A stretch of 64,000 nt of DNA from Flavobacterium sp. HJ-32-4 (GTDB lineage Bacteria > Bacteroidota > Bacteroidia > Flavobacteriales > Flavobacteriaceae), in NCBI RefSeq assembly GCF_022532105.1, contig NZ_CP092832.1, forward strand, positions 1,302,001 to 1,366,000, given 5' to 3'. Every line of letters starts with the position of its first letter. The first letter of the stretch is position 1. Position numbers and translations under genes: made by a program. Shown here piece by piece: positions 1,620 to 41,428 of this stretch. The notes beneath the pieces are model-generated. The model made no database searches. It saw only the letters and a program-made list of their open reading frames with translations, and was not told the DNA's origin.

Positions 1620-2180
1620 TTGAAAGTAATCGATTTACATGCTGATGAGAAGGAGTTGATCCGACTCGCCATCGACCGCAACCGGCACGCACAGCAGCTG
1701 ATGTACCAGCGCCATGCACCGAAGATGCTGGGGGTGTGCAGGCAGTATATCAAAGACGTTCACCAGGCCGAAGATGTGATGATCACCGCATTCATGAAAG
1801 TGTTCACGAACCTGGCCCATTTTGAGGGGAAGGGGAGTTTTGAAGGATGGATACGGCGGATTATGATCAACGAATGCCTTTCGTATCTGCGGGCCCACCG
1901 ACGCATCAGTTTTCTTGAAGACAAGCCGTATGCCGAGCCGGGTTTCAACGACATCGAATGCAACCTGTCGGTCGACGACATCCAATCGCTGATCGACGAG
2001 ATGCCTGACGGATTTCGTACCATCTTCAACCTCTACGTCATCGAAGGGTATAAACACAAAGAGATTGCGGAAATGCTTGACATCCATGAAGGCACGTCGC
2101 GATCGCAGTTTGCAGCGGCCCGGAGGCACCTGCAGGAACGAATTCAAAAATTAGAAATGTATGGCAACGGAACGGAATAA
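1620..2180 (+). CDS. ECF-type RNA polymerase sigma factor (locus 1)
   Basis: A 186-residue sigma-70 family protein with only regions 2 and 4, as in extracytoplasmic-function sigma factors. Region 2 includes HQAEDVMITAFMKVF and GSFEGWIRRIMINECLSYLR. Region 4 includes the helix-turn-helix YKHKEIAEMLDIHEGTSRSQ. The best start is TTG at 1620, because the next ATG, at residue 28, would remove part of region 2; AAGAGG lies just upstream. Its 3' end overlaps the next gene by 20 bp, which indicates translational coupling to the membrane protein that follows, a likely anti-sigma factor. The signal it answers to is unknown. Confidence 0.9.
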   Translation: MKVIDLHADEKELIRLAIDRNRHAQQLMYQRHAPKMLGVCRQYIKDVHQAEDVMITAFMKVFTNLAHFEGKGSFEGWIRRIMINECLSYLRAHRRISFLEDKPYAEPGFNDIECNLSVDDIQSLIDEMPDGFRTIFNLYVIEGYKHKEIAEMLDIHEGTSRSQFAAARRHLQERIQKLEMYGNGTE

Positions 2181-2886
2181 AATGGAGGAGGATTTCAGGA
2201 TAAAATTAGGGCAACGGGAAATCATGCCCTCTGAAGGCGCATGGGACCGCCTGGATGCCATGCTGTCCGTAGCGGAAGGTAAGAAGAAGCGGGATTTCCG
2301 TTGGCTGTATATCGCCGCCAGTATACTGGGCTTTGCCTTGATTGCCACCTGGTTTTTCGGCAGCACACAGGAAATGACCGATACGGCACGTCCGAGGGTG
2401 GTGGTCAATGAGACAGAGGAGACGCAGGTAACGCCTTCAACGCCAGAAGCGGCCCTCCCGATGCCGACAACGGCAACAAGCCCCGCAGCAGTCGCCATCC
2501 AAACGCCTAAAGTGGGCCGGCACGCAGAAGCGACAAGCGAAAAGGGTGCCATTGTAAACGCGCCGGTGACCTATCCGACTAACGAAGCCGGGACAAACGG
2601 AGCCGGAGTCGCTCAGAATACGAATGAAATCATCCATCAAAAGACCGGACAGGTCGCACCGAAGCCGGTAACGGTTGACGCAGCCGCACTACTGGCTTCG
2701 GTCGACAATAAGGGCAAGGTGACGGTGCCGTTTTCTGGTAAGGAAAAGGTAAAGGTCGACGCTGCCAGCCTCTTGTCGCAGGTCGACGGTGAACTCGATA
2801 TGACCTTTCGCGAGAAAACTATCCGGACGGTGACACGCAACTACCAGAATGTCAAGGTGGCGCTGTCGAACCGGAACAATGAATAG
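2161..2886 (+). CDS. Single-pass membrane protein, probable anti-sigma factor (locus 1)
   Basis: A 241-residue protein with a cytoplasmic N-terminus (1-45), one hydrophobic segment at about 48-67, and a Thr/Pro/Ala-rich region beyond it, probably periplasmic. The N-terminus has the pattern FRxxL followed by PSEGAWDRLDAML (23-35), which closely matches the N-terminus of the protein encoded at 34748-36136 beside another ECF sigma factor. The C-terminal part holds two copies of a short motif of the form VxVDAAxLLxxVD. Its position directly after, and overlapping, an ECF sigma gene supports an anti-sigma role, although no classical zinc-binding anti-sigma motif is present. The function is inferred from context. 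Confidence 0.7.
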   Translation: MATERNKMEEDFRIKLGQREIMPSEGAWDRLDAMLSVAEGKKKRDFRWLYIAASILGFALIATWFFGSTQEMTDTARPRVVVNETEETQVTPSTPEAALPMPTTATSPAAVAIQTPKVGRHAEATSEKGAIVNAPVTYPTNEAGTNGAGVAQNTNEIIHQKTGQVAPKPVTVDAAALLASVDNKGKVTVPFSGKEKVKVDAASLLSQVDGELDMTFREKTIRTVTRNYQNVKVALSNRNNE

Positions 2887-2912
2887 CAATCATCAATCAA
2901 ATTTCAATAGTT

Positions 2913-3944
2913 ATGAGAACCATTACCCTTTTTTTGGCAGGCTTGTTCTGCCTGTTGGCCAGCAAGATGGTGGGCCAGAGTTTTGAAGATCGTGCGCGCC
3001 TGATCGCCAACAAGATCGAGACCGTTACGAAAGACGAGAAAGCCGCATTGAAACAGGAAGTGGAGAAGGTCAACGAAGACCTACAGGCGGGTCGCCTTAC
3101 GGCAGAAGAAGCCGACCAGCGCAAAATGGACCTCGCGCAGACCCATGCCCGCGCGATTGAAGAGAAAGTCGCCGCCTACGAAGCGGAGCTCCGCGATTTG
3201 GTGCAACAGAAAATCGACGGGAAAATCCATGAGGAGGATACCAGCCGCATGTTCCGTGTTACCTTCAAATGGCGGGACCCGGATAATTGGTCACGCCATC
3301 ATGGCGAGTCGCGCACCACAACCCAGTTCGTTTTCGCAGCCGGCGTCAACAACCTTGTCACGAACGGGTCGGTAGCCAATTCCGATTTCCGCTACTGGGG
3401 CTCCCATTTCTATGAGTGGGGTTTTACCTGGAATACCCGCCTGATGAAAACCGACAACCTGCTGCACGCCAAATACGGTTTTTCGTTGCAATACAACAAC
3501 CTGCGTCCTACCGACAACCGTATGTTTGTTGACAACGGTTCAACGACGGACCTTGAGACCAATACGGTGAACATGCGCGATTCGCGTTTCCGGAATGTCA
3601 ACCTGGTGTTTCCCGTCCATCTCGAGTTTGATTTCACCCGCAAAGGCGAGCACGATGGAAAACCTACGTTCCGTACGCATGAGTCGTTTCGTTTCGGTAT
3701 CGGTGGCTATGCCGGTGTGAACCTTAAAACCAAACAAGTGTTGCGTTACGATGTCGACGGATACAAAGAACGCAGTATCACCAAAGGCAGTTTCAATGTC
3801 AACGATTTCATTTATGGCGTGAGTGCTTATGTAGGATATGAGTCGACAAGTCTCTACGTTAAATACGACTTAAACCCATTATTCAAAGACAATCCGGTGG
3901 CGCAGCGCAACGTGTCGTTGGGCATCCGGTTTGACCTGAATTAA
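2913..3944 (+). CDS. Secreted protein with coiled coil and predicted beta-barrel C-terminus
   Basis: A 343-residue protein with a signal peptide (MRTITLFLAGLFCLLASKMVGQ). A charged, probably coiled-coil region follows at about 25-100 with many Glu, Lys and Ala, as in EEKVAAYEAELRDLVQQK. From about 110 the sequence alternates aromatic and polar residues and ends in GIRFDLN, consistent with outer-membrane beta strands. I do not recognise a named family. It starts 26 bp after the anti-sigma-like gene and is likely the third gene of that operon. Together the three genes place a sigma factor, an inner-membrane protein and an outer-membrane protein in one unit. Confidence 0.65.
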   Translation: MRTITLFLAGLFCLLASKMVGQSFEDRARLIANKIETVTKDEKAALKQEVEKVNEDLQAGRLTAEEADQRKMDLAQTHARAIEEKVAAYEAELRDLVQQKIDGKIHEEDTSRMFRVTFKWRDPDNWSRHHGESRTTTQFVFAAGVNNLVTNGSVANSDFRYWGSHFYEWGFTWNTRLMKTDNLLHAKYGFSLQYNNLRPTDNRMFVDNGSTTDLETNTVNMRDSRFRNVNLVFPVHLEFDFTRKGEHDGKPTFRTHESFRFGIGGYAGVNLKTKQVLRYDVDGYKERSITKGSFNVNDFIYGVSAYVGYESTSLYVKYDLNPLFKDNPVAQRNVSLGIRFDLN

Positions 3945-3982
3945 GAAGTAGTGAGGTAATTTTACCTTTTCTTCCCTATCAT

Positions 3983-4008
3983 GAAAGCGTTCCCTTTGGA
4001 GCGCTTTC
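3983..4008 (+). terminator. Hairpin terminator after ECF locus 1
   Basis: The arms GAAAGCGTTCC (3983-3993) and GGAGCGCTTTC (3998-4008) pair over 11 positions with one G-T pair and a CTTT loop, followed by GTATTTTA. It would end the three-gene unit before dnaG. It also lies inside the longest in-frame extension of dnaG, which argues for the later dnaG start at 4062. Confidence 0.7.
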
Positions 4009-4061
4009 GTATTTTACGTCGCAATGATGTACCTTCGTACTTTGCCATTGGCTGCCCACGC

Positions 4062-6038
4062 ATGATTACCCAAAGCACTATAGAGAAAGTTTTCGAAGCC
4101 GTCCGCGTAGAGGAGGTCATCGGCGATTTCGTGCAACTGAAGCGATCGGGCAGTAATTTCAAAGGGTTGAGTCCGTTTTCGGAAGAACGGACGCCTTCTT
4201 TCATGGTGTCGCCCGTCAAGCAGATTTGGAAGGATTTCAGTAGCGGCAAAGGCGGAAATGCCATCTCCTTTATCATGGAACACGAGCATTTCACCTATCC
4301 GGAGGCCATCCGGTATCTGGCGAAGAAGTACAACATCGAAATCGAAGAAACCGAGCAGACCGACGAGCAGAAGGCGGTGCAGGATGCGCGCGAGAGTATG
4401 TACCTCGTGTCGGAATTCGCCCGCGACTACTTCCATGACATCCTGCTGAACAGCGACGAAGGGAAAGCCATTGGGCTGTCGTACTTCAAAGAACGTGGGT
4501 TTACGTTAGACACCATCCGGAAATTCCAGTTGGGTTATTCGCCTGAATCGCGTACGGCTTTTACCGATGAAGCCATCCGGAAAGGGTACCAACTCGAGTT
4601 CATGGAAAGCACCGGCCTGACGATTGTGCGGGAAGAACGACAATTCGACCGGTTTAGCGGACGGGTCATGTTTCCCATCCAAAGCATGTCGGGACGGGTG
4701 TTGGGTTTTGGCGGACGTATCCTTACCAACGACAAAAAAACCGCGAAATACCTGAATTCGCCGGAAAGCGAGATTTACCATAAGAGTAAGGTACTCTATG
4801 GTATCTTCCAGGCGCGGCAGGCCATTGCCAAGCAGAACAACTGTTTTTTGGTGGAAGGCTACACCGATGTCATCCAGTTTCACCAAGCGGGTATTGAGAA
4901 CGTGGTGGCCTCGTCGGGAACTGCGCTTACCCCCGACCAAATACGACTCGTCAATCGCCTGACGCGAAACATCACCGTGCTGTTTGACGGGGATGCAGCC
5001 GGTCTGCGGGCGTCGCTTCGCGGTATTGACCTGATTTTGGAGGAAGGGATGAACGTGCGGGTCTGTACGTTCCCCGATGGCGATGACCCGGATAGCTTTG
5101 CGCGGAAGACACCGTATGAAGACTTGGTAGCGTATATCGAAACGAACAGCAAAGACTTCATCCGGTTCAAGACGTCCCTTCTGATGGAGGACGCCCGTCA
5201 TGATCCCATCAAAAAGGCCGAGTTGATCCGCGATATCGTGACCAGTATCTCAAAGGTGCCCGATCGTATCCAACGCGAAATCTACATACAAGAGTGTTCG
5301 CGTCTCATGGATATCTCCGAACAGGTACTTGCCAGTGCGCTCGCGCAGATGGTGCAGAAGAACCTGGCCGACGCGTCGAAGAAACCGCAGACGGAACGAC
5401 AGGGACTTGAAGTCGTGCAATCAGAACCAGACGCACCGGCTGAGAAAGTCGACATCCTCTACGAACTTGAACGAAAGATCATCGCGATCCTGCTGCTATA
5501 TGGCGACCGAACCGCCGATTTCGAAGATACCTTCCTTCGCCTGAACGAAGAAGGGGAAGCGGAAGAAGTACGGGAAACCACCACCTGCAAAATCTACGAA
5601 CGCATCTACCTGAGTTTACAGGAAGATGAAGTCGAACTCGCGAACGCGGAATTCCGTGCCATCTACAACGACCTCATTGCCTATTTCCATGCCAATGAAA
5701 CTTTTTCAACCGAGCATTACCTGGCACGCCTCGACACGGCATTGAGTCCGATGGTTACCGACATCCTGATGGAAGACGAGCGGATGCAGCTCCACAACTG
5801 GGAAGCGCGGCAGATACTCGTCAAACAGAAAACCGACACGATTGGACAGTACGTTACCGAAACCATCTTTACGCTGCGCTGGTATCTGGTAGACCGCATC
5901 ATCGATGAGTTGAAAAAGGAAATCGTGCCCGACCCTGAGGCCGACAATAGTGAAACGCTGTCGATGGTGATGGATTACTATAAGCTCATCCACACCTTTT
6001 CAACGCGTTTGGGTCGCGTGATGTCCCGTTTTTCCTAA
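4062..6038 (+). CDS. dnaG: DNA primase DnaG with degenerate zinc-binding domain
   Basis: A 658-residue primase that makes RNA primers at the replication fork. The order is an N-terminal zinc-ribbon-like domain (1-95), a catalytic TOPRIM core with EGYTDV and DGDAAG, and a helicase-binding C-terminus. The N-terminal fold motifs remain (TPSFMVSPVKQIW, GKGGNAISF), but all four zinc ligands of the usual CPFHxEKTPSF and CFGCG motifs are replaced: Ser37, Ser40, Asp58 and Ser61. The start at ATG 4062 (MITQSTIEKVFEAVRVEEVIG) is preferred because the in-frame extension to 3981 reads through a terminator hairpin. Its stop overlaps by 3 bp the stop of the convergent response-regulator gene. Confidence 0.93.
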   Translation: MITQSTIEKVFEAVRVEEVIGDFVQLKRSGSNFKGLSPFSEERTPSFMVSPVKQIWKDFSSGKGGNAISFIMEHEHFTYPEAIRYLAKKYNIEIEETEQTDEQKAVQDARESMYLVSEFARDYFHDILLNSDEGKAIGLSYFKERGFTLDTIRKFQLGYSPESRTAFTDEAIRKGYQLEFMESTGLTIVREERQFDRFSGRVMFPIQSMSGRVLGFGGRILTNDKKTAKYLNSPESEIYHKSKVLYGIFQARQAIAKQNNCFLVEGYTDVIQFHQAGIENVVASSGTALTPDQIRLVNRLTRNITVLFDGDAAGLRASLRGIDLILEEGMNVRVCTFPDGDDPDSFARKTPYEDLVAYIETNSKDFIRFKTSLLMEDARHDPIKKAELIRDIVTSISKVPDRIQREIYIQECSRLMDISEQVLASALAQMVQKNLADASKKPQTERQGLEVVQSEPDAPAEKVDILYELERKIIAILLLYGDRTADFEDTFLRLNEEGEAEEVRETTTCKIYERIYLSLQEDEVELANAEFRAIYNDLIAYFHANETFSTEHYLARLDTALSPMVTDILMEDERMQLHNWEARQILVKQKTDTIGQYVTETIFTLRWYLVDRIIDELKKEIVPDPEADNSETLSMVMDYYKLIHTFSTRLGRVMSRFS

Positions 6039-31355: not shown

Positions 31356-32219
31356 TTATCCCAGGTAGGTCTTCAGGATTTTGCTGCGTGAGGTGTGTTT
31401 CAACCTCCGGATAGCCTTCTCCTTGATCTGGCGCACACGCTCGCGCGTGAGGTCGAAGGTCTCGCCAATCTCCTCAAGTGTCATCGGATGTTGGTCACCC
31501 AATCCGAAATACAGACGCACCACATCCGCTTCACGCGGTGTAAGCGTTTCAAGCGAACGCTCGATTTCCGTCCGCAGTGATTCGTGGATCAGTTCACGGT
31601 CGGGGTTAGGAGACTCGCCTGAACGCAATACATCATACAGGTTCGAATCCTCGCCTTCTACCAACGGCGCATCCATTGACAGGTGACGTCCGGAATTCTT
31701 CATACTCTCCTTCACGTCGTTGACGGTCATGTCGAGTTCTTTCGCGATTTCTTCCGCGGATGGTGGACGCTCGTTCGATTGCTCGAGCAACGCATACATC
31801 TTGTTGATCTTATTGATCGATCCGATTTTGTTCAGCGGCAAACGCACAATACGCGATTGTTCGGCCAACGCCTGAAGAATCGATTGACGGATCCACCAAA
31901 CCGCATACGAAATGAATTTAAAACCGCGGGTTTCGTCGAAGCGCTGCGCAGCTTTGATCAATCCAAGGTTTCCTTCGTTGATCAGATCGGGAAGCGTCAA
32001 TCCCTGGTTTTGGTATTGCTTGGCAACGGATACCACGAAACGAAGGTTGGCTTTTGTCAGCTTCTCCAACGCTTTCTGGTCTCCGGCCTTGATCTTTTGT
32101 GCGAGTTCCACCTCTTCGTCAGCGGTGATAAGATCGACTTTCCCGATTTCCTGTAGGTACTTGTCAAGTGAAGCAGTCTCCCGGTTGGTTACCTGCTTGG
32201 TAATCTTAAGTTGTCTCAT
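31356..32219 (-). CDS. rpoD: Primary sigma factor RpoD/SigA (Bacteroidota type)
   Basis: A 287-residue sigma-70 factor, short because it lacks most of region 1.1. Region 1.2 is [16 protein letters not shown], region 2 includes [31 protein letters not shown] and [13 protein letters not shown], and region 4.2 holds the helix-turn-helix [20 protein letters not shown]. This housekeeping sigma of Bacteroidota reads the unusual -33 TTTG / -7 TAnnTTTG promoters found throughout the window. A likely promoter is the one-mismatch TAACTTTT about 65 nt upstream of the ATG. Confidence 0.96.
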
Positions 32220-32299: not shown

Positions 32300-33253
32300 T
32301 TAGTAGGAAAGATCGACCCGGGCCGTCAGGCGCGCTTCGTAAAAGGCAACCTTTTGTAACATCTTGCTAAAGAATAATTTACGGTCTCTGGTGCCGGAGT
32401 GGTTCAGCGATTTTGAGTTTTGCAATTGGAAGAGAAAATAGTCGCGGGCGTGCCGGCACGTCACGTCGTCTCCGGTGATGAAATAACCTAACATCGTATA
32501 AGGGACGAAGAGGCGCATACGGTTCTCATCGCACACGAGTACGTTATTGTTAAGAATCAAAAGCTCATTATGGTACAGATCATAACGCGCATCCGCCCGC
32601 GAACAGCGACGCTCGGTTTCCGCCAATAATGTGCGGACATCCTCATAGAGCGCGCGCGCCGCGTCCGGTGTCAGCAATCCCGATTCCGAGAAATAGTCGA
32701 TTTGCTGTAAGGTGCTGTTGATCGTCGTATCATTCCAGATTTCACGGATGGCCATATTCGCATACGCATTCCGCAGTCGGCTGCTGTGCGGTAGTACGGC
32801 TTCCGGTACCGTAAACCCCGAAAAAGGCGTCATGTCGCTACCGGTCAGCAACGCCATCCATACATATAGCTTGAACTTCGACAACAGCGTACCGCCCACC
32901 GTATGAAACAGCGGGATATCCTTAGCGGAATAATACATCACCGCGTCCTGCTTCTGGAAACGTTCCAGATAATCCGCCGATGTCGCAAAATAATCAGCCA
33001 GGTCAGCAAACGAATGGATTTCCTTGGTCTTTTCGACCACCACTTTGTTATCGGCACCCAACACCGCATCCATCGACAGGTTAAAATGCCGACACAACGC
33101 GACGGCCTCGTCTATCGAGAACTTGCTCTTAGAGGATACCCGCCGGTGGGCCGCATCGTAGCTAATCGATAGGACAGCCGACAATACATCCAGCAACGAA
33201 TCACCGGGTGGGATTTTCTTTCGGATGGCAGCCAGCAGCAGATCTTGGTTCAT
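32300..33253 (-). CDS. Helix-turn-helix regulator-like protein of unknown target
   Basis: A 317-residue cytoplasmic protein. Residues 12-65 look like an N-terminal helix-turn-helix of the XRE or BetR type (DSLLDVLSAVLSISYDAAHRRV, then SKFSIDEAVALCRHFNLSMD). The long C-terminal part (about 80-317) is mostly alpha-helical with no known motif. Such proteins are frequent in flavobacteria and uncharacterised. The ATG at 33253 (MNQDLLLAAIRKK) is chosen over an upstream TTG. It is divergent from the surface-repeat protein gene across 97 bp and may regulate it, which is only an inference from position. Confidence 0.65.
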   Translation of the reverse strand: MNQDLLLAAIRKKIPPGDSLLDVLSAVLSISYDAAHRRVSSKSKFSIDEAVALCRHFNLSMDAVLGADNKVVVEKTKEIHSFADLADYFATSADYLERFQKQDAVMYYSAKDIPLFHTVGGTLLSKFKLYVWMALLTGSDMTPFSGFTVPEAVLPHSSRLRNAYANMAIREIWNDTTINSTLQQIDYFSESGLLTPDAARALYEDVRTLLAETERRCSRADARYDLYHNELLILNNNVLVCDENRMRLFVPYTMLGYFITGDDVTCRHARDYFLFQLQNSKSLNHSGTRDRKLFFSKMLQKVAFYEARLTARVDLSY

Positions 33254-33320
33254 TTGTGATTTTCGCAAAACACAATAGTACTAAAATTATTTAACACAAC
33301 ATCGATTGTTATTATCGCAA

Positions 33321-33328
33321 TAGTTTTG
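33321..33328 (+). promoter_or_regulatory. -7 element for the surface-repeat protein gene
   Basis: TAGTTTTG fits TAnnTTTG and lies 22 nt before the ATG at 33351. On the other strand TACTATTG (one mismatch) at about 33279-33286 could serve the divergent regulator gene. Confidence 0.5.
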
Positions 33329-33350
33329 GCTCAGTAAAATACACATCCAA

Positions 33351-34085
33351 ATGAAAAAAATCCTCCTTTTGGCACTCCTCATAGCAGGTAGTGCAAGCGC
33401 ACAAGACAGCTTACCGGGCCATATACAGCGCGGGTTCAGCCTATCGCCCATTTCCCGTAAGGTAAGCCGTGTCGACGGATGGGTGCTGGGCGTCGGCCAT
33501 TATCGCAGTAAACTGATCGAACGGCAAACCGTAAACGGCCTCAACACCGAATTGAGTCCGACCGGCGCGGCCTTCGTACTCGCCGGGATCGTTAGGGTTA
33601 TGTACCTGAGCAAACGGGGTGAAATTCCCATCATTGACAGCCTTCCGGCGGCGGCGCCAACGTTTATCCGGGTCAATGGAATCAATGTAAGTACGGGTGG
33701 ATTTATCGAAGAAGGTGCGGAGGTGCGCGGACTCAACCTCTCGACCGCTACCCTCCTGAACCGGATGCAGGGTGTTTCCGTATCGGCACTTGCCGTTGGA
33801 GCAGTTCGGGTAGACGGATTCACCATCAGTCCGTTCTCCTCCATCCGGCACCTGAACGGAGGCTCTATTTCCCTCACCAACAGCGCCTGGGAGGTACGGG
33901 GCACGCAAATAGGGCTCCTCAACATGACCCGTGAATTGCGTGGGCTACAGCTGGGAGCCATCAACTCAGCCCGTTCGTCGCGATATGGCTTCCAGATTGG
34001 GCTGATCAACCGCACCCATCGCGGGTTTCAGCTAGGCTTGTTGAACATCAATAAAAAACGGGTACTACCCCTCTTAAACTGGTAA
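33351..34085 (+). CDS. Secreted protein with LA_2272-type surface repeats
   Basis: A 244-residue protein with a signal peptide (MKKILLLALLIAGSASAQ). Towards the C-terminus (about 183-240) it has repeats of the form GxQ(I/L)GLLN or GLQLGAIN: GTQIGLLN, GLQLGAIN, GFQIGLIN and GFQLGLLN, spaced 13-18 residues. This matches the LA_2272 surface-repeat family, first named in Leptospira, of unknown function. It is 4 bp from the next gene and likely co-transcribed with it. Confidence 0.7.
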   Translation: MKKILLLALLIAGSASAQDSLPGHIQRGFSLSPISRKVSRVDGWVLGVGHYRSKLIERQTVNGLNTELSPTGAAFVLAGIVRVMYLSKRGEIPIIDSLPAAAPTFIRVNGINVSTGGFIEEGAEVRGLNLSTATLLNRMQGVSVSALAVGAVRVDGFTISPFSSIRHLNGGSISLTNSAWEVRGTQIGLLNMTRELRGLQLGAINSARSSRYGFQIGLINRTHRGFQLGLLNINKKRVLPLLNW

Positions 34086-34089
34086 TCGC

Positions 34090-34713
34090 ATGAAAAAGAT
34101 CATTTGTGTTTCGCTATTGCTTGCCTCCCTGATAGGATCGGCACAGGCCCGTCCTTTCCTGTCGCCCACCGAACGTGTATATGTCGAAGCCGGAGGGTAC
34201 ATTCCGCTTGACGGCCTAAAAGACAAAATCCAGCCGTCTGTGAACTTCGGATTCTGGTACCGCGCCGTCCATTTCGAGCGCGAATCACTCGAGATTGGTT
34301 TCAACCTGACGGTTCCGGAAAGCGTGGGCAACTTCCAGTATATCCATCGCGACAGTATCTTCAACAACCGCATCCGTGGACTCGGCGGCACCATAGGTAT
34401 CCGCTACTCGGCACGGATGGATTTCTTCGAATCTCCGACCACCGGCATGGAATGGTATTCGACCCTGGGCTACGGCTTCCTGACGTACCGATCACAGTTT
34501 GTAGGCTATACCGATCCCTCTGCTCCCTTTCAAAAGGAACGATACAGCAAGGTGTTCAGTACCATGTCAATCGGACTCGGGGTACGCTGGTTTTACAAGA
34601 ATGTAGGTGTACAGGCGGGTTACCAGTGGACACCTTACTCCTGGTTTTACAAAGACTTACCGCGCGATTTTGGAAGCGGCGCGTTGTTGGTAGGGATTGT
34701 ATACAAGCAATAA
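34090..34713 (+). CDS. Predicted outer-membrane beta-barrel protein
   Basis: A 207-residue protein with a signal peptide (MKKIICVSLLLASLIGSAQA). The mature part alternates hydrophobic and polar residues with many aromatics (VNFGFWYRAVHFE, GTIGIRYSARMDF, GVRWFYKNVGVQAGYQW) and ends GALLVGIVYKQ, as expected for a small eight-stranded barrel. No named family is recognised. It is co-directional with the surface-repeat gene. Confidence 0.65.
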   Translation: MKKIICVSLLLASLIGSAQARPFLSPTERVYVEAGGYIPLDGLKDKIQPSVNFGFWYRAVHFERESLEIGFNLTVPESVGNFQYIHRDSIFNNRIRGLGGTIGIRYSARMDFFESPTTGMEWYSTLGYGFLTYRSQFVGYTDPSAPFQKERYSKVFSTMSIGLGVRWFYKNVGVQAGYQWTPYSWFYKDLPRDFGSGALLVGIVYKQ

Positions 34714-34747: not shown

Positions 34748-36136
34748 TTATAATCTGTAACTAAATCCGAATTGAGCTGTGACCCACCGGGGTCGGAAGG
34801 TGGTGTCGCTTTCGAGCGTCTTAAGGGGGTAACGGAAGAGCGGCGTTACCTCGGCGCGCCAATGCGACCCGATTTTATAGTATACCTGAAAACCTGCGTC
34901 AATACCCGAAGTGGTTTTCAGGAAGTTGTTTTGACCTCCCAGAGAAAACGTTTGGGTTCCCGTTGCCGAGACGACTAATTCATTGCGGTTGTAGCGCATC
35001 AGGGCTATGCCGAGTAGTGCCTCCACCCCGAGATTGCGGTCTAGTAGCCGGTAGCTGAACGTGATGGGAATCTCGGAGTACCGGATTTCCTGGTCAATGG
35101 TAACCGTCTGGGCATTTACGAATCGTTCTTCGACATCCATAGGCGACATTCCGGCAGCCAAATCAATGCGACTGTAGTCAAGGAAGCGATTATCACTCCC
35201 GACCCCCGAGATGTGGGTTTGGTACGCCAGGTTTACCTGTGAGTAGCCAATCTGGATACCAAAACGGCCGTTGAACTTCCACTTCGCAAACAAGCCGAAC
35301 GAATGGCCTGCCTTTCCCTTGCCCGAGAAGGTAGCGGCATCTGAGAGAGGCGAGGCGTTCCCGAAGGATGCCATTACGTTTGGGCCATACCAACCGCCCA
35401 CGTAAAACTCATACTGGGGCTTGGGTTCCTCTGCAGCTTTGGATTCGTCTTTTTTGACGGTTTTCTTTTGGTTGGCGGTGCTGTCTGCCGTCGGTGTTGT
35501 GGCAACGGAAAGGGAATCACTGGTGGGAAACAGCAGTTCCCGCCCGAGACTTCCCGTCGGATTCGGCTGAAATGCGATGCCTTTGGCCTCTTCTGCCTGT
35601 CCGAACGCGTCGCGGGAAGACGCCATTCGCTTTTTAGCAAAATACGATGTAAAGCGCGTCGGAGGGTGCATTCGCGTACGCCGGTGATTTCGGTGCACCG
35701 GCCCTTTTTTAGTAAAGGAAGGACGAGACGACTCGACGGAATGGGCTTTTTGGGATGCCGTTACAGTAGTCGTGTTGCCTGACGTCGGTGCCGACCTCTC
35801 AGGATGCAGGGTGTTTGGATCACTAGGGTCTACCTTTCCATCCGGATGTGATACGACGGGTTGTGATACAGAAGGGCGTACCGGAGCCGATTTTTCGTCA
35901 CGTCGTTCCCAATTGTCGTTACTCTCGACAGCATCCCCGGTGAAATACGTAACGCCAAAATACCCCACCAGGAGCATTGCCGCCAGTCCCGGCCACCAAA
36001 GCCAGAACACGCCGCGGCGTTTTTTCTTTTTTTCAAGGTCGGCCTCGATACGAGCCCAAACTTCGTCAGAAGGCGTTTGGTCGAGGTCTTTCAGGCGTTC
36101 GCGGAAGGCGCGACCGATATCTTTTTTATTTTCCAT
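34748..36136 (-). CDS. Anti-sigma-like N-terminus fused to a predicted outer-membrane beta-barrel (locus 2)
   Basis: A 462-residue protein with three parts. Residues 1-42 are charged and cytoplasmic, with FRERL and PSDEVWARIEADL (22-34), matching the N-terminus of the protein at 2161-2886. Residues 43-65 form one membrane helix, followed by a Ser/Thr/Pro-rich linker (66-238). Residues 241-462 resemble an outer-membrane barrel of the PorT-like type (YEFYVGGWYGPN, RFGIQIGYSQVNLAY, EIPITFSYRLL) and end in the beta-signal-like QFGFSYRL. There is no cleavable signal peptide. It overlaps the upstream ECF sigma gene by 11 bp. The role as anti-sigma is inferred from this. Confidence 0.75.
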   Translation of the reverse strand: MENKKDIGRAFRERLKDLDQTPSDEVWARIEADLEKKKKRRGVFWLWWPGLAAMLLVGYFGVTYFTGDAVESNDNWERRDEKSAPVRPSVSQPVVSHPDGKVDPSDPNTLHPERSAPTSGNTTTVTASQKAHSVESSRPSFTKKGPVHRNHRRTRMHPPTRFTSYFAKKRMASSRDAFGQAEEAKGIAFQPNPTGSLGRELLFPTSDSLSVATTPTADSTANQKKTVKKDESKAAEEPKPQYEFYVGGWYGPNVMASFGNASPLSDAATFSGKGKAGHSFGLFAKWKFNGRFGIQIGYSQVNLAYQTHISGVGSDNRFLDYSRIDLAAGMSPMDVEERFVNAQTVTIDQEIRYSEIPITFSYRLLDRNLGVEALLGIALMRYNRNELVVSATGTQTFSLGGQNNFLKTTSGIDAGFQVYYKIGSHWRAEVTPLFRYPLKTLESDTTFRPRWVTAQFGFSYRL

Positions 36137-36674
36137 TGCTCACCTTTTTAGGGTTAATGGGAGTTTGCTGTAACTCTCTTTTCAACAAAGCCTTGGCCTT
36201 GTGTAGGTTTGATTTTGAGGTGCCCTCTGTAATATCCAGCATTGAGGCGATTTCCTTATGCGAATAATCGTCCAACTCATAAAGGCAGAATACCAGCCGG
36301 TACTGGTTGGGAAGACGTTGCACGAGTTCCAACAACCGGTCAAGCGACACGTCCATCTCGTCTTCATCTACCGTGGTGTCATCCGGGAGCTTGTCAGGCA
36401 GGGCGACGAGTCCAAAGGTTTTGCGGTAACTGTCAATTGCTTTGTGGATGGTGATCCGTTTCATCCATCCCTCAAACGACCCTTTGTTTGCAAAGCTTCG
36501 GATGTTGGTGAAGATCTCGACGAACGCGTTGTGCAGGTTGTCTTCGGCTTCTTCCAGGTTGGCGCAATACTTCAGGCTGAGCGCGAAGAGCGTATTTCGG
36601 TAGCGTCCATAGAGTGCTTCCCGCGCCTTTCGGTCGCCGTCCATACAGCCTTTTATGATGTTATCGAGATCCAA
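36126..36674 (-). CDS. ECF-type RNA polymerase sigma factor (locus 2)
   Basis: A 182-residue two-region sigma factor. Region 2 includes EEAEDNLHNAFVEIFTNI and GSFEGWMKRITIHKAIDSYR. Region 4 includes YELDDYSHKEIASMLDITEGTSKSNLHKAK. The best start is TTG at 36674 (DLDNIIKGCMDGDRKAREALY), since the next ATG removes the conserved N-terminal helix. Use of TTG is shared with the ECF gene at 1620. It overlaps the fused anti-sigma/barrel gene and follows a lipoprotein gene by 48 bp. Confidence 0.9.
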   Translation of the reverse strand: MDLDNIIKGCMDGDRKAREALYGRYRNTLFALSLKYCANLEEAEDNLHNAFVEIFTNIRSFANKGSFEGWMKRITIHKAIDSYRKTFGLVALPDKLPDDTTVDEDEMDVSLDRLLELVQRLPNQYRLVFCLYELDDYSHKEIASMLDITEGTSKSNLHKAKALLKRELQQTPINPKKVSNGK

Positions 36675-36722: not shown

Positions 36723-37994
36723 TTAAAAGTAATGGATTCCGCGCACATGCACGCCCGATGTCGTCTTATCTTCAGCGCTCATCACATTGGTCGTAGCGTC
36801 CAGCACAAAGGCAGTAGCACCCGTAGCGTCGGTGGCCGACCAATAGCGTCCGTTCAACTCATTGGGCAGTAGCGGCACAAGGGCGTCCCGTATAGCCTGG
36901 AGTTCCGCTTTGGAAGGAAGAAACCAGCGATGGCCGACATCCGCCCCAAATAACAATACTTCCCGTGCAGCCACGGTTCCGTCGGCGGTAGGGGAACAGA
37001 CGGAAGGCGTAGTGTAGAAATCGACCAGCGCCCCATGCATCCGGGCAATATCGCCGCTGGCCCATTTTCCGGCACCCATGCCGTCCTGTAATGCCTGCGG
37101 AATCGCCAGGATGTTGCATCCCCATTGCGCGGAAGGTAGGTCGCTTTCCATTATCTCAATATACCGCCATCCCTCGCTATACGAACCTTTGTCATAGCAT
37201 ACCAACCCTCCCTGCGGACCGACGGCGCCAATCGAATAGGCCGTTTCGGTTTCACAGGAACGACTTAGTTGTATCAACTGGTTTCCGTCGCCGATACGGA
37301 TAGTATCAGGCGTGACGATGACAGGTGCGTCGATTTGCCAGTAGTCGGCTAGGGCTGAGGTGCCGCCGAGATAAATGTTCATGTGGTAGTTGTCGTTTAC
37401 GAAAAGAAACGTCCACGTACCCTCATAGGTTTCGCCATTGTAGTAAAAGGTTAATGTCCCGTCGGGATGGGTCTGGAAAACACCACCTACAAACCCATTG
37501 CGACCGCCTTCTACGTAATCGACGTTCCAGACGCAGGGTGTGGGCGGACAAAACAATCCGTTGCAATACCGGATGATGTCGTCACGGTTGCAACTGTCGA
37601 TCGCCGCCTTCAACTCTTCGTTGTTATGGATGGAAAAGACGCTGCCGTCTGCTAGTGTGGTCGAAATCGGATAGCTGATACTGATCGCAGCGTCTGTAAC
37701 CAGGTTGCCGAGGAAAGCACTGAAATCAGCGTCGCCGACAATCTGGTCTTGCGCCACCGGATCGAGATCACCATCATAGGTAATGACGGTAAGGGGATAG
37801 ACGAAGTCAATGCAGACGATGTGCTGTAACGGGTCGGTGTCCTCGTTGCTGATCTGGCTCACTTGCGTAAACAGGACGTCCTGCTGTGTGATCACATTGT
37901 CAAAGTCGGGGACGATGGTGTCGGCCCGTAGGGTATCATCGAGGTCGGTGCATCCCGCCAGGGCGAGAAACAGGAAGGGGAGGTATCGTTTCAT
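36723..37994 (-). CDS. Lipoprotein with DUF1566/Fib_succ-like C-terminal domain
   Basis: A 423-residue lipoprotein with lipobox LALAGC (Cys15), so attached to a membrane, possibly exposed on the surface. The N-terminal half has no recognised family. The C-terminal third (about 270-423) contains SEGWRYIEIMESDLPSAQWG, HRWFLPSKAELQAIRDAL and GRYWSATDATGATAFVLD, wording typical of DUF1566 or Fib_succ major-paralogous domains, which belong to a C-type-lectin-like group. It starts 6 bp after the stop of the papain-like lipoprotein gene and is probably in the same operon as the ECF genes. Confidence 0.7.
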   Translation of the reverse strand: MKRYLPFLFLALAGCTDLDDTLRADTIVPDFDNVITQQDVLFTQVSQISNEDTDPLQHIVCIDFVYPLTVITYDGDLDPVAQDQIVGDADFSAFLGNLVTDAAISISYPISTTLADGSVFSIHNNEELKAAIDSCNRDDIIRYCNGLFCPPTPCVWNVDYVEGGRNGFVGGVFQTHPDGTLTFYYNGETYEGTWTFLFVNDNYHMNIYLGGTSALADYWQIDAPVIVTPDTIRIGDGNQLIQLSRSCETETAYSIGAVGPQGGLVCYDKGSYSEGWRYIEIMESDLPSAQWGCNILAIPQALQDGMGAGKWASGDIARMHGALVDFYTTPSVCSPTADGTVAAREVLLFGADVGHRWFLPSKAELQAIRDALVPLLPNELNGRYWSATDATGATAFVLDATTNVMSAEDKTTSGVHVRGIHYF

Positions 37995-38000
37995 GGTAAT

Positions 38001-39002
38001 TTAAATTGCGTCATACGCGATATAAGCGCCTAAAAGGCCGTATTCATAGTCAGGATCGGAGGCTTGTCGGAAGAAATCATAACTCACCCAGCAGTAACCT
38101 TCGTTGCCCCAGTCGGTTCCCCATGAGTTCACCACCTTGAACGCGGCCAGGTCGTCGTCGTACCCCACCACGAGCATGGCGTGTGAGCCGACAAGTTGCG
38201 TGCTGTCGCAATGGAGGTACACGAAGCGGTTGTCGGCATCCCGGGGTGTGGCCGCCCGGAACGACTGGTCGAGTTTCATACCGATGACCACCGGCATCTG
38301 CGTAGCGATCATCGCCTTTACGACATTGCGGGTTGTGAAGGAACCGGTTTCCGCAAGCGGGTAGACCGCGTAATAGTCACTAATTTTATGGGCCTCGGCC
38401 TCGGTTCGTGCCACGCTTCCGGGCTGGTAGGTGCATACGGAAGGGTTGTACGGAAAATACGCCCATGTGCAGGCCCCTTGTGCTTTCAATACATGGAGTG
38501 CGTTCTCGATGCAGGTGCCCACATCGCAACCGCCGGCTTCTTTCGCCTGGTTATAAACATACGCCGGACTCATCACCTGGTCGAAGGTGGTAAACACATG
38601 GCCATATTGGATTTTTTCCTGATAGCTTTTTAGGTAATAGGTCGTGGCCCACGCCACGCAGCTTCCCTGCGCCCCCTGGCTTCGCACGGGCGGCATATCG
38701 GCACTGAGGTCAAACAGCACCGGGAGGTCGGGCGGAATCTCAAAAACCGGTAGCGGCAGCGCGGGCTCGGTAATGCTCGCGCAGCCTGCGTCATTGAGGC
38801 CACAGTTTTTCGGGTCGTTTTGTGCAACTTCCGTCTCAATAGGCGTTTCGGGATCGATGGGTGGATTTTCTTCCTCCGGCTCCGGCTCCCAGTCAATCGG
38901 ATTGACGTTATCGGGTGGGCGCGTGCGGCTTCCCACGGGTTCGGTTTCACAGCTTAGGGCTGAAAATGCGATGAAGATGGCAACCAGGAGACGTAGTTTC
39001 AT
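38001..39002 (-). CDS. Papain-like (C1 family) cysteine peptidase lipoprotein
   Basis: A 333-residue lipoprotein. The signal peptide MKLRLLVAIFIAFSALSC ends in the lipobox with Cys18; this start at 39002 is preferred over a longer frame with no signal. A Pro/Glu-rich linker (about 30-60) follows. The peptidase domain has SQGAQGSCVAWA with the catalytic Cys115, SHAMLVVGYDD with the catalytic His, and VVNSWGTDWGNEGYCWVSY with the Asn. No classical inhibitory propeptide is visible. It is the first gene of a probable operon with a second lipoprotein and ECF locus 2. Confidence 0.85.
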   Translation of the reverse strand: MKLRLLVAIFIAFSALSCETEPVGSRTRPPDNVNPIDWEPEPEEENPPIDPETPIETEVAQNDPKNCGLNDAGCASITEPALPLPVFEIPPDLPVLFDLSADMPPVRSQGAQGSCVAWATTYYLKSYQEKIQYGHVFTTFDQVMSPAYVYNQAKEAGGCDVGTCIENALHVLKAQGACTWAYFPYNPSVCTYQPGSVARTEAEAHKISDYYAVYPLAETGSFTTRNVVKAMIATQMPVVIGMKLDQSFRAATPRDADNRFVYLHCDSTQLVGSHAMLVVGYDDDLAAFKVVNSWGTDWGNEGYCWVSYDFFRQASDPDYEYGLLGAYIAYDAI

Positions 39003-39054
39003 ATGACCTGTTTTAGCTATAGTCGACCACAAAGCAAAAGGTTGCCTCAAAAAA

Positions 39055-39112: not shown

Positions 39113-41428
39113 CTATTCCTGTGTTTCGTCGTTGTGTGACTCACGGGATTCTTCTTGGTCCGGGCGTGGTTCGCGCGGCGGACGGTTGTCATCACGACGT
39201 GGCCCACGGTCATCACGACGCGGTCCGCGATCGTCACGGCGGGGTCCACGGTCATCGCGACGTGGTCCGCGGTCATCGCGACGCTCCGGGCGCGGTGCAT
39301 TCTCATCACGAGGAGGGCGTGGGAGAAGCGCCTTACGGGAAACACGCTCTTTCTTCGTCTTCGGATCGATACCCATGAATTTCACATCAAGTTCATCACC
39401 CATGTTGACCACATCGGTTACGTTCTCCGTGCGCTCCCATGCCAATTCTGACACGTGCAGCAGGATTTCGTTACCCGGCGCGTCGAGGTATTCCACTACC
39501 GCACCGAAGTCCATGATCTTGATGACTTTCACGCGGTACGTCTCACCGATTTCCGGTTTGAACTTAAGCGCTTCGATCTTGGCCAGAACCATGTCGATAC
39601 CATCCTGGTCGGTACCGAGGATTTCGACAACACCCTGGTCGTCGACTTCGTTGAGTACGATGGTCGTTTTCGACAATTTCTGGAGTTCCTGGATATTCTT
39701 TCCACCTGGTCCGATGAACGGCCCAATGTATTGGCTTGGCATGTACGCCATGATGATCTTCGGCGCATTTGGTTTCAGTTGCGGACGTGAAGCTGGGATG
39801 GCCTCTGTCAGCTTCTCCAAAATGTGAAGACGTCCGGCACGTGCCTGTTCCAACGCCTGCTCCATGATATCATAACGAAGTCCTTCAATCTTAATGTCCA
39901 TCTGGCAGGCCGTGATACCGTCAGCGGTACCCGTTACTTTGAAGTCCATGTCACCCAGGTGATCTTCATCCCCAAGGATATCCGACAATACGGCCCAACG
40001 ACCGGTAGCATCGTCTGAGATGAGTCCCATGGCGATACCCGATACCGGCTTCACCATACCAACACCTGAATCAAGAAGCGCCATCGTGCCGGCACAAACA
40101 GTGGCCATGGAAGACGATCCGTTTGATTCAAGAACTTCCGATACGATACGGATGGTATAGGCACAATCTTCCGGGATCATGTTTTTCAACGCCCGTTGCG
40201 CCAGGTTTCCGTGGCCTACCTCACGACGTGACGTACCGCGTAGCGGACGTGCCTCACCAGTTGAGAAAGGAGGGAAGTTGTAGTGCAGGTAGAAACGCTC
40301 TTCACCTTGCTCAGATGGTGTATCGATGATGTTCGCTTCGCGCGATGTACCAAGGGTGACGGTCGCCAACGCCTGGGTTTCACCCCGTGTGAAGATAGCA
40401 GAACCGTGGGTGCGTGGCAGATAATCGACCTCACACCAGATCGGACGGATGTCGGTTGTCTTACGTCCGTCAAGACGGATGCCTTTTTCAAGGATGACGT
40501 TACGGACGGCCTCTTTCTGTACTTTATACAGATACGTGCTCACCAGGTCACCGTTCTCGGCAAGTTCTTCTTCGGTGAACGTCGCGATGACCTCCTCCTT
40601 AACGGCTGAGAATTTCTCGCTGCGCTCCTGCTTGGACGAACCTTCAAGTGCAATGGCGTAGTACTTGTCGTAAGCGGCTTCTTTCACGCGGGCATAGACG
40701 GCCTCGTTTGACTTGTCACCTTCGTATTCGCGCATCGCTTTGCCAACAGCCGCACGCATGCGTTCCTGGGCGGCAACCTGTACCTTGATGGCGTCATGGG
40801 CGAATTTGATGGCTTCGACCATTTCCTTTTCGGAAATCTCTTTCATCTCACCTTCTACCATCGCAACAGAGTCGGCAGACGCACCGATCATCATGTCGAT
40901 GTCAGACGCTTCGAGTTGTGACGGACTAGGGTTGATGATGAATTTACCGTCAACACGTGCCACACGCACCTCTGAAATCAGGGTTGGGAAAGGCAGGTCG
41001 GAAACAGCGATGGCAGCAGAAGCGGCAAGTCCGGCCAGTGAATCCGGCATGACTTCCTCATCGTGTGACATCAATTGGATCATTACCTGCGTTTCGGCAT
41101 GGTAATCATCCGGGAAAAGCGGACGGAGCACGCGGTCCACAAGGCGCATGGTCAATACTTCCTTGTCGCTAGGACGCGCTTCGCGCTTGAAGAAACCACC
41201 TGGGAAACGGCCTGAAGAGGCGAATTTCTCGCGGTAGTCAACGGTGAGCGGAAGAAAATCCACTCCAGGGTTTGCAGTTCTTGCGGAGACTGCGGTAGCG
41301 AGCAGCATGGTGTCACCCATACGCACTACTACCGATCCGTCGGCCTGTTTGGCCAGTTTTCCGGTTTCGATCGAGATGGTCCTGCCATCTCCCAAATCGA
41401 TAACCTCGGTAATAACATTTGGAATCAT
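39113..41428 (-). CDS. pnp: Polyribonucleotide nucleotidyltransferase (PNPase) with heptad-repeat tail
   Basis: A 771-residue exoribonuclease that degrades RNA by phosphorolysis from the 3' end. It has two RNase PH domains joined by an alpha-helical domain, with the catalytic core around [23 protein letters not shown], then a KH domain ([16 protein letters not shown]) and an S1 domain ([21 protein letters not shown]). After S1 the tail holds four exact DDRGPRR heptads and a fifth degenerate one, then an acidic end. The basic, RGG-like tail may bind RNA or partner proteins. It is downstream of rpsO on the same strand, with a terminator between. Confidence 0.96.

Follow-up and report, generated by a model that had tools for sequence, protein, structure and literature searches.

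A predicted Dma/Reo-type trans-envelope anti-sigma factor in a Flavobacterium-like bacterium, with barrel-less orthologues at the same locus

The architecture in which an anti-sigma end is joined to an outer-membrane barrel is already published (Dma1-3, Reo). In Bacteroides thetaiotaomicron, Dma1 and Dma2, paired with Das1 and Das2 (ECF21), are described in the passages concerned as combining an anti-sigma N-terminus, a single membrane helix, a long disordered tether and a barrel at the C-terminus; the gene sits next to that of an ECF sigma factor, and the operon is short (PMC13088901). A pair of the same layout was described from Phocaeicola vulgatus in 2022; the relevant passages state that loss of the anti-sigma factor turns the regulon on, and that a toxin presumed to act through envelope stress induces the pair (PMC9308784). 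In the EcfO-Reo systems (Bacteroides fragilis and Phocaeicola vulgatus M0N98_03760-61), the anti-sigma factor is predicted to extend across the periplasm and the outer membrane. Excerpts of that work say that Reo spans all compartments and probably senses outer-membrane stress, and control of surface lipoproteins is proposed (PMC13114119). The passages on these systems also state that the regulon includes surface lipoproteins (NigD) and that antibacterial toxins are inducers (PMC9308784, PMC13114119). FecI-FecR-TonB receptor signalling likewise connects what happens at the outer membrane with an ECF sigma factor via a single-pass anti-sigma factor.

We analyzed a 64-kb stretch of DNA from a Flavobacterium-like host (the window, i.e., the whole stretch) that carries a locus of this kind. 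The domain order of its anti-sigma protein is the same as that given for Dma2 in the passages on that protein (PMC13088901). The likeness to Dma1, Dma2 and Reo is one of described domain order. The window locus differs from Dma1 and Dma2 in its host, in its pnp-lipoB-ecf-dma-rpoD neighbourhood, in a GCAACC/GACTA element and in having barrel-less orthologues. It differs from EcfO-Reo in the putative lipoproteins linked to it (a C1-peptidase-like one and lipoB) and from FecI-FecR-TonB in that the outer-membrane part, a predicted eight-stranded barrel, is fused to the anti-sigma factor, in which no FecR domain was found. What goes beyond the published passages is the presence of two subfamilies, subfamily-specific promoter-like elements and barrel-less members. 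Among the papers listed by text searches, none dealt with this locus, its promoter or barrel-less orthologues; the founding description of the Dma architecture, a 2024 PNAS paper, may contain some of this.

The gene pair and the predicted chain

The Dma-type anti-sigma gene (34748..36136, minus strand, 462 aa) overlaps by 11 nt the gene of an ECF sigma factor of 182 aa with a TTG start (36126..36674, minus strand); the initial annotation had noted an overlap with an ECF sigma gene. The sigma factor matches Pfam Sigma70_r2 and r4_2 above cut-off as well as NCBIfam sigma70-ECF, and among the 25 NCBIfam families listed only the ECF superfamily model is above cut-off. The presumed operon begins with lipoC1 (38001..39002, minus strand), a putative lipoprotein gene with a papain-like (C1) peptidase domain. 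Its start is the ATG at 39002; the TTG at 39050, listed by the ORF finder, was judged too early and sits just ahead of a promoter-like element. Between lipoC1 and the sigma gene is lipoB (36723..37994, minus strand), a putative lipoprotein with an LFLALAGC signal by eye, a weak Lcl_C-like match at its C-terminus and no match to the NigD family (Pfam, E up to 1).

The gene order in the window is pnp, lipoC1, lipoB, ecf, dma, a small cassette and rpoD. From their sequences, we take the conserved upstream neighbour (39113..41428, minus strand) to be pnp, encoding polynucleotide phosphorylase, and the conserved downstream neighbour (31356..32219, minus strand, 287 aa) to be rpoD. The cassette (32300-34713) encodes a 322-aa regulator-like protein, whose match to BetR is weak and does not reach the cut-off, together with a pair of small putative outer-membrane proteins (207 and 244 aa), neither of which has a Pfam match. 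It recurs, whole or in part, beside loci of the window's subfamily (type A, below), upstream of ecf in L019 and L023 and downstream of dma in L009 and L022. None of the neighbours between 31.4 and 41.4 kb is of the TonB-receptor kind by size or Pfam match, in agreement with the earlier claim that no separate TonB receptor adjoins the pair.

The anti-sigma chain is predicted to run from the cytosol through both membranes to a surface barrel. Residues 1-42 (36011..36136; this and the following segments on the minus strand) form the N-terminal cytosolic segment, with the motif IG..F...L.....P...W..I...L.KKKKRR. The KKKKRR precedes, at residue 43, a single membrane helix of residues about 43-65 (35942..36010); the hydropathy maximum starts at residue 44, and the structure model has helices at residues 7-18 and 24-66. 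The periplasmic linker, residues 66-241 (35414..35941), is predicted to be disordered, with pLDDT <50 across nearly all of residues 66-236. Residues 242-462 (34751..35413) are a predicted eight-stranded outer-membrane barrel, from the model and from strand alternation (p = 0.0045), and the nearest solved folds to this predicted structure include OmpA, OmpW and NspA. The initial annotation had read the chain in this order (cytosolic end, helix, linker, barrel) and had called for a full-chain structure prediction, and the model, the hydropathy and the strand alternation bear the layout out.

The cytosolic end is conserved. Many invariant alignment columns fall within the first 42 residues, and M1, E2, G8, L18, P22, W27, I30, K37 and K38 are invariant in 28/28 rows of alignment A1. 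The regions between barrel strands diverge much among aligned members. We did not find an anti-sigma domain in residues 1-42 by Pfam search, a FecR match to the anti-sigma protein at E up to 1, or a match to it in a PDB sequence search. The co-variation excess is 0.194 for the ECF protein with the N-terminus and 0.192 for the ECF protein with the barrel (nulls 0.158), values equal enough that the test does not single out the N-terminus.

The same window holds an unfused version at 1620-3944 (plus strand) besides the fused one at 34748-36136. This triplet has an ECF sigma gene at 1620-2180, a 241-aa, single-pass anti-sigma factor with no barrel, and a third gene (2913-3944) whose 343-aa product begins, by eye, like a signal peptide and has no Pfam family over cut-off. 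The N-terminus of the unfused anti-sigma factor matches the Dma profile with an hhalign probability of 90.8% (E 1.2e-6). A separate hhalign comparison, of A1 with A2, is not an independent one since A2 holds P0001.

Distribution, two subfamilies and promoter-like elements

A protein search returned the query and 27 others, some of them named outer membrane beta-barrel protein of Flavobacterium. A more distant search gave 481 matches, and organism names are flavobacterial among the 120 listed. An ECF gene lies directly upstream of the anti-sigma gene in 19/19 named loci. In a tool-drawn sample of 120 family genomes, one of which is the window's own, the anti-sigma factor was found in 103 (E up to 0.001) and the sigma factor also in 103 (E up to 1e-35). 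Comparison of both lists shows that the same 17 genomes are without either, and 14 of these are 2.2 Mb or smaller. The flavobacterial profile does not reach far: 27 of 148 genomes in a wider phylum sample match it at E up to 1e-5, and an ECF-like gene adjoins the match in 11 of the best 14 loci outside the family (L186-L199).

Among 102 ECF rows, from loci picked via Dma or ECF matches, an anti-sigma partner adjoins 101 (101 stretches), two of these partners belonging to another class. The remaining row, L173, failed the adjacency filter, though a Dma match sits about 450 nt downstream. The barrel is present in 86/98 sigma/anti-sigma pairs, across wide divergence, a count that omits windowB and L163, whose anti-sigma factors are of another class, L105, which a contig end truncates, and L173. 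A natural fusion of sigma and anti-sigma factor was not found in the family, where no ECF match sits in a frame >219 aa. One candidate from the same genus, a 773-aa protein of L203, was rejected as a sigma fusion; it has an anti-sigma-like end, a membrane helix, a TonB-receptor plug and vWA/YfbK domains, and comes after an ORF that looks sigma-like by eye, the two lying at 1831-4691 (minus strand).

In a tree of 57 ECF proteins, type A, which includes the window locus, splits from type B with support 100/100, and the window's own genome holds a second copy, of type B (G000, about 724.6-726.3 kb). The window subfamily occupies a conserved pnp-lipoprotein-ecf-dma-rpoD cluster. In the fetched stretches of type A loci, pnp (24/41) and a lipoB homologue (22/41) lie upstream and rpoD lies downstream (30/41). 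None of these neighbours was found in the 57 type B loci, an absence that is partly by definition, since the tree covers 42 type A and 15 type B rows and the other 42 type B loci were labelled by the absence of pnp, lipoB and rpoD. Type B has a lipoprotein gene of its own: a conserved putative lipoprotein of 134-142 aa is encoded right before the ECF gene in 8/8 loci (chosen, not sampled). The copy in the window's own genome (L064 8871-9278, minus strand, about 726.9-727.3 kb) has no Pfam match, NigD included, at E up to 10, and kinship with NigD was rejected on this ground.

A promoter-like element, AGGCAACC-N15-GACTATA, is located at 39018..39047 (minus strand), in the gap that separates pnp from the lipoC1 ATG (39002). 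It is the sole match with ≤2 mismatches in the 64-kb window. The type A pattern GCAAC(C/T)-N12-17-GACTA occurs in 27/41 type A and 0/57 type B loci, and the type B (TATCTA) pattern in 16/57 type B and 0/41 type A loci, both counted within 2950 bases. The type B element, upstream of the type B ecf, is ACGCAACC, 14 bases and GTATCTA, with constant spacing in the 16 loci. The first box, GCAACC, is thus common to both types and the second box differs (GACTA in A, TATCTA in B). Shuffles gave counts of at most 2; they overstate the significance, since the loci that yielded the motifs also served for counting them and share ancestry. With a relaxed type A pattern the counts were 25/41 for type A and 1/57 for type B, and with ATCAG as the second box, a control, they were 2/41 and 0/57. 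With the strict patterns, 14/41 type A and 41/57 type B loci are missing their own element.

The strict type A pattern is not enriched across the window's own genome, where it has one match, at the operon itself, and the reversed control has four. It is thus the place of the window element, not its rarity, that counts, and a genome-wide regulon defined by this pattern was rejected, the operon being its only site. A stricter pattern, one that the site in the window fails to match, had two matches across 41 genomes of the genus, one of them directly preceding a lipoB homologue (35% identity). The type B promoter pattern has no match in the window, and the type B promoter model scores at best 9.1 there (shuffled mean maximum 8.2; training sites 25-39). 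In the type B operon of the same genome, a weaker type B site (10.9) precedes the lipoprotein gene; in other type B loci the promoter-like element lies directly before ecf. A start-site study of Flavobacterium psychrophilum reports six motifs, none of which is described with GCAACC, GACTA or TATCTA boxes in the passages concerned; these tie one ECF/anti-sigma pair to a CGT-box motif (PMC9723704). The element of the window is a candidate site for autoregulation by the cognate sigma factor, as judged from its sequence and position.

Proposed mechanism and the linker

We consider it quite probable that the locus encodes a flavobacterial trans-envelope anti-sigma factor of the Dma/Reo type that functions as a whole in five steps. 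First, the sigma and anti-sigma factors would be co-translated through the 11-nt overlap. Second, the membrane helix would serve as a signal anchor that is not cleaved, leaving the N-terminus in the cytosol for residues 1-42 to hold the sigma factor. Third, the linker would cross the periplasm and BAM would fold the barrel into the outer membrane, so that the chain would be tethered at both ends. Fourth, outer-membrane stress or failed barrel assembly would make the periplasmic part cleavable, or change it, and the sigma factor would be freed. Fifth, the sigma factor would act at the GCAACC-N-GACTA element to transcribe the operon that encodes it (lipoC1-lipoB-ecf-dma), giving more lipoproteins and more anti-sigma factor. 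The gene pair, domain order, fold, promoter-like element and its subfamily specificity come from sequence or prediction. Sequestration of the sigma factor and its release by stress would follow by analogy with the published relatives, and signal transfer to the sigma factor is suggested by the gene pairing together with the published Dma/Reo systems. BAM dependence, proteolysis and autoregulation are what we infer ourselves.

The linker fits a chain anchored in both membranes. The distance from helix to barrel is 94-306 residues in the 86 barrel-bearing members and 177 in the window protein, with medians of 219.5 residues for type A and 200 for type B. The linker is never shorter than 94 residues, which fully extended would be about 32 nm (arithmetic, at 0.34 nm per residue) and thus long enough for crossing a periplasm. 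In the 100 anti-sigma proteins for which hydropathy was measured, including two of the other anti-sigma class, the maximum begins at residue 41-64. These lengths also bear on the alternative of a barrel that remains folded, senses a ligand or stress as a receptor and signals by pull on the tether or by a change of its conformation, without proteolysis. The wide variation in linker length and the large differences between aligned members in the inter-strand regions of the barrel favour such a receptor, but a disordered linker of 94-306 residues would be a poor transmitter of conformation or force, and we regard this alternative as unlikely.

Barrel-less orthologues and the purpose of the barrel

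At the type A locus, 11/41 members have no barrel and stop after 206-247 residues. They follow the same ecf gene, and rpoD lies downstream in 10/11. The promoter-like element (strict or relaxed pattern) is kept in 9/11, so that these systems look alive. We did not find an ORF of at least 100 aa matching the family barrel profile in the fetched stretches of the 11 loci. Downstream in one of them, L104, a separate protein of 186 aa is encoded whose start looks signal-like. Aequorivita sinensis and A. xiaoshiensis are barrel-less and A. aurantiaca is barrel-bearing. L162 (5507-10055, plus strand), a type A locus, has two adjacent ECF/anti-sigma pairs; the anti-sigma partner is a 567-aa barrel-bearing protein in the first and a 179-aa barrel-less one in the second.

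The barrel-less members do not make up one clade. The barrel-less L023 (Flavobacterium sp. MFBS3-15) nests with the barrel-bearing L010, L014 and L019 at 100/99, and a single clade of all 12 barrel-less rows is rejected (AU p 6.7e-5); at least two changes must therefore have occurred independently. Parsimony counts five barrel changes on the tree. We claim two and not five because one clade is not rejected without L023 (p 0.057) or without L023 and L162_2 (p 0.097). The word YYN(S/D), usually followed by IDSL, is found near the C-terminus of 9/12 barrel-less proteins, the exceptions being L023, L107 and the second pair of L162. It is not exclusive to these forms, as 5/86 barrel-bearing proteins also have YYN(S/D). 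One of these is of type A (L161), with YYNS in its linker and a place among the barrel-less rows in the tree.

Since 11/41 type A members are without a barrel, control of the sigma factor apparently can run without one, and these orthologues suggest that the circuit of some lineages can do without the barrel. The barrel could even be a mere anchor or by-product with no part in sensing, control of the sigma factor lying with the periplasmic linker or with how much anti-sigma factor is present. The persistence of ecf, rpoD and the promoter-like element at barrel-less loci, with no separate barrel ORF nearby, speaks for this. However, the barrel is kept in 86/98 pairs over wide divergence, and the YYN(S/D) tail, so much commoner in barrel-less proteins, suggests that something replaced the barrel there; we judge the anchor explanation somewhat less likely still than a folded receptor. 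It is very improbable that the protein is simply one of the usual outer-membrane proteins, with an odd signal anchor, and is encoded near a sigma gene by accident: some relatives bear the database name 'outer membrane beta-barrel protein' and Pfam has no anti-sigma domain for it, but the ECF pairing holds in nearly every locus, the genomes without either gene are identical sets, KKKKRR precedes the helix at residue 43 and many invariant columns lie in residues 1-42.

The trans-envelope anti-sigma reading can be extended, tentatively, to a detachable sensor of outer-membrane assembly in barrel-bearing lineages, with the locus rewired by dropping of the barrel in their sisters. The sensor would itself be a BAM substrate, and an unfolded, tethered barrel would lead to cutting of the linker and freeing of the sigma factor. 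Sister lineages with the same ecf-dma locus and promoter would have dropped the barrel in at least two independent changes, and the YYNS...IDSL periplasmic tail of most barrel-less proteins would serve as a docking point for a separate partner. L161, with both barrel and YYNS, could be an intermediate.

Most useful among the new points are the promoter-like elements, one for each subfamily, and the absence of the barrel from natural orthologues. The candidate promoter has a clear subfamily specificity between two paralogous systems, which makes their regulons searchable. Barrel-less orthologues at one locus offer a direct test of the purpose of the barrel. The Dma/Reo design, studied in gut Bacteroidales according to the published passages, extends to Flavobacterium-like bacteria, with the pair in 103/120 sampled genomes of the family.
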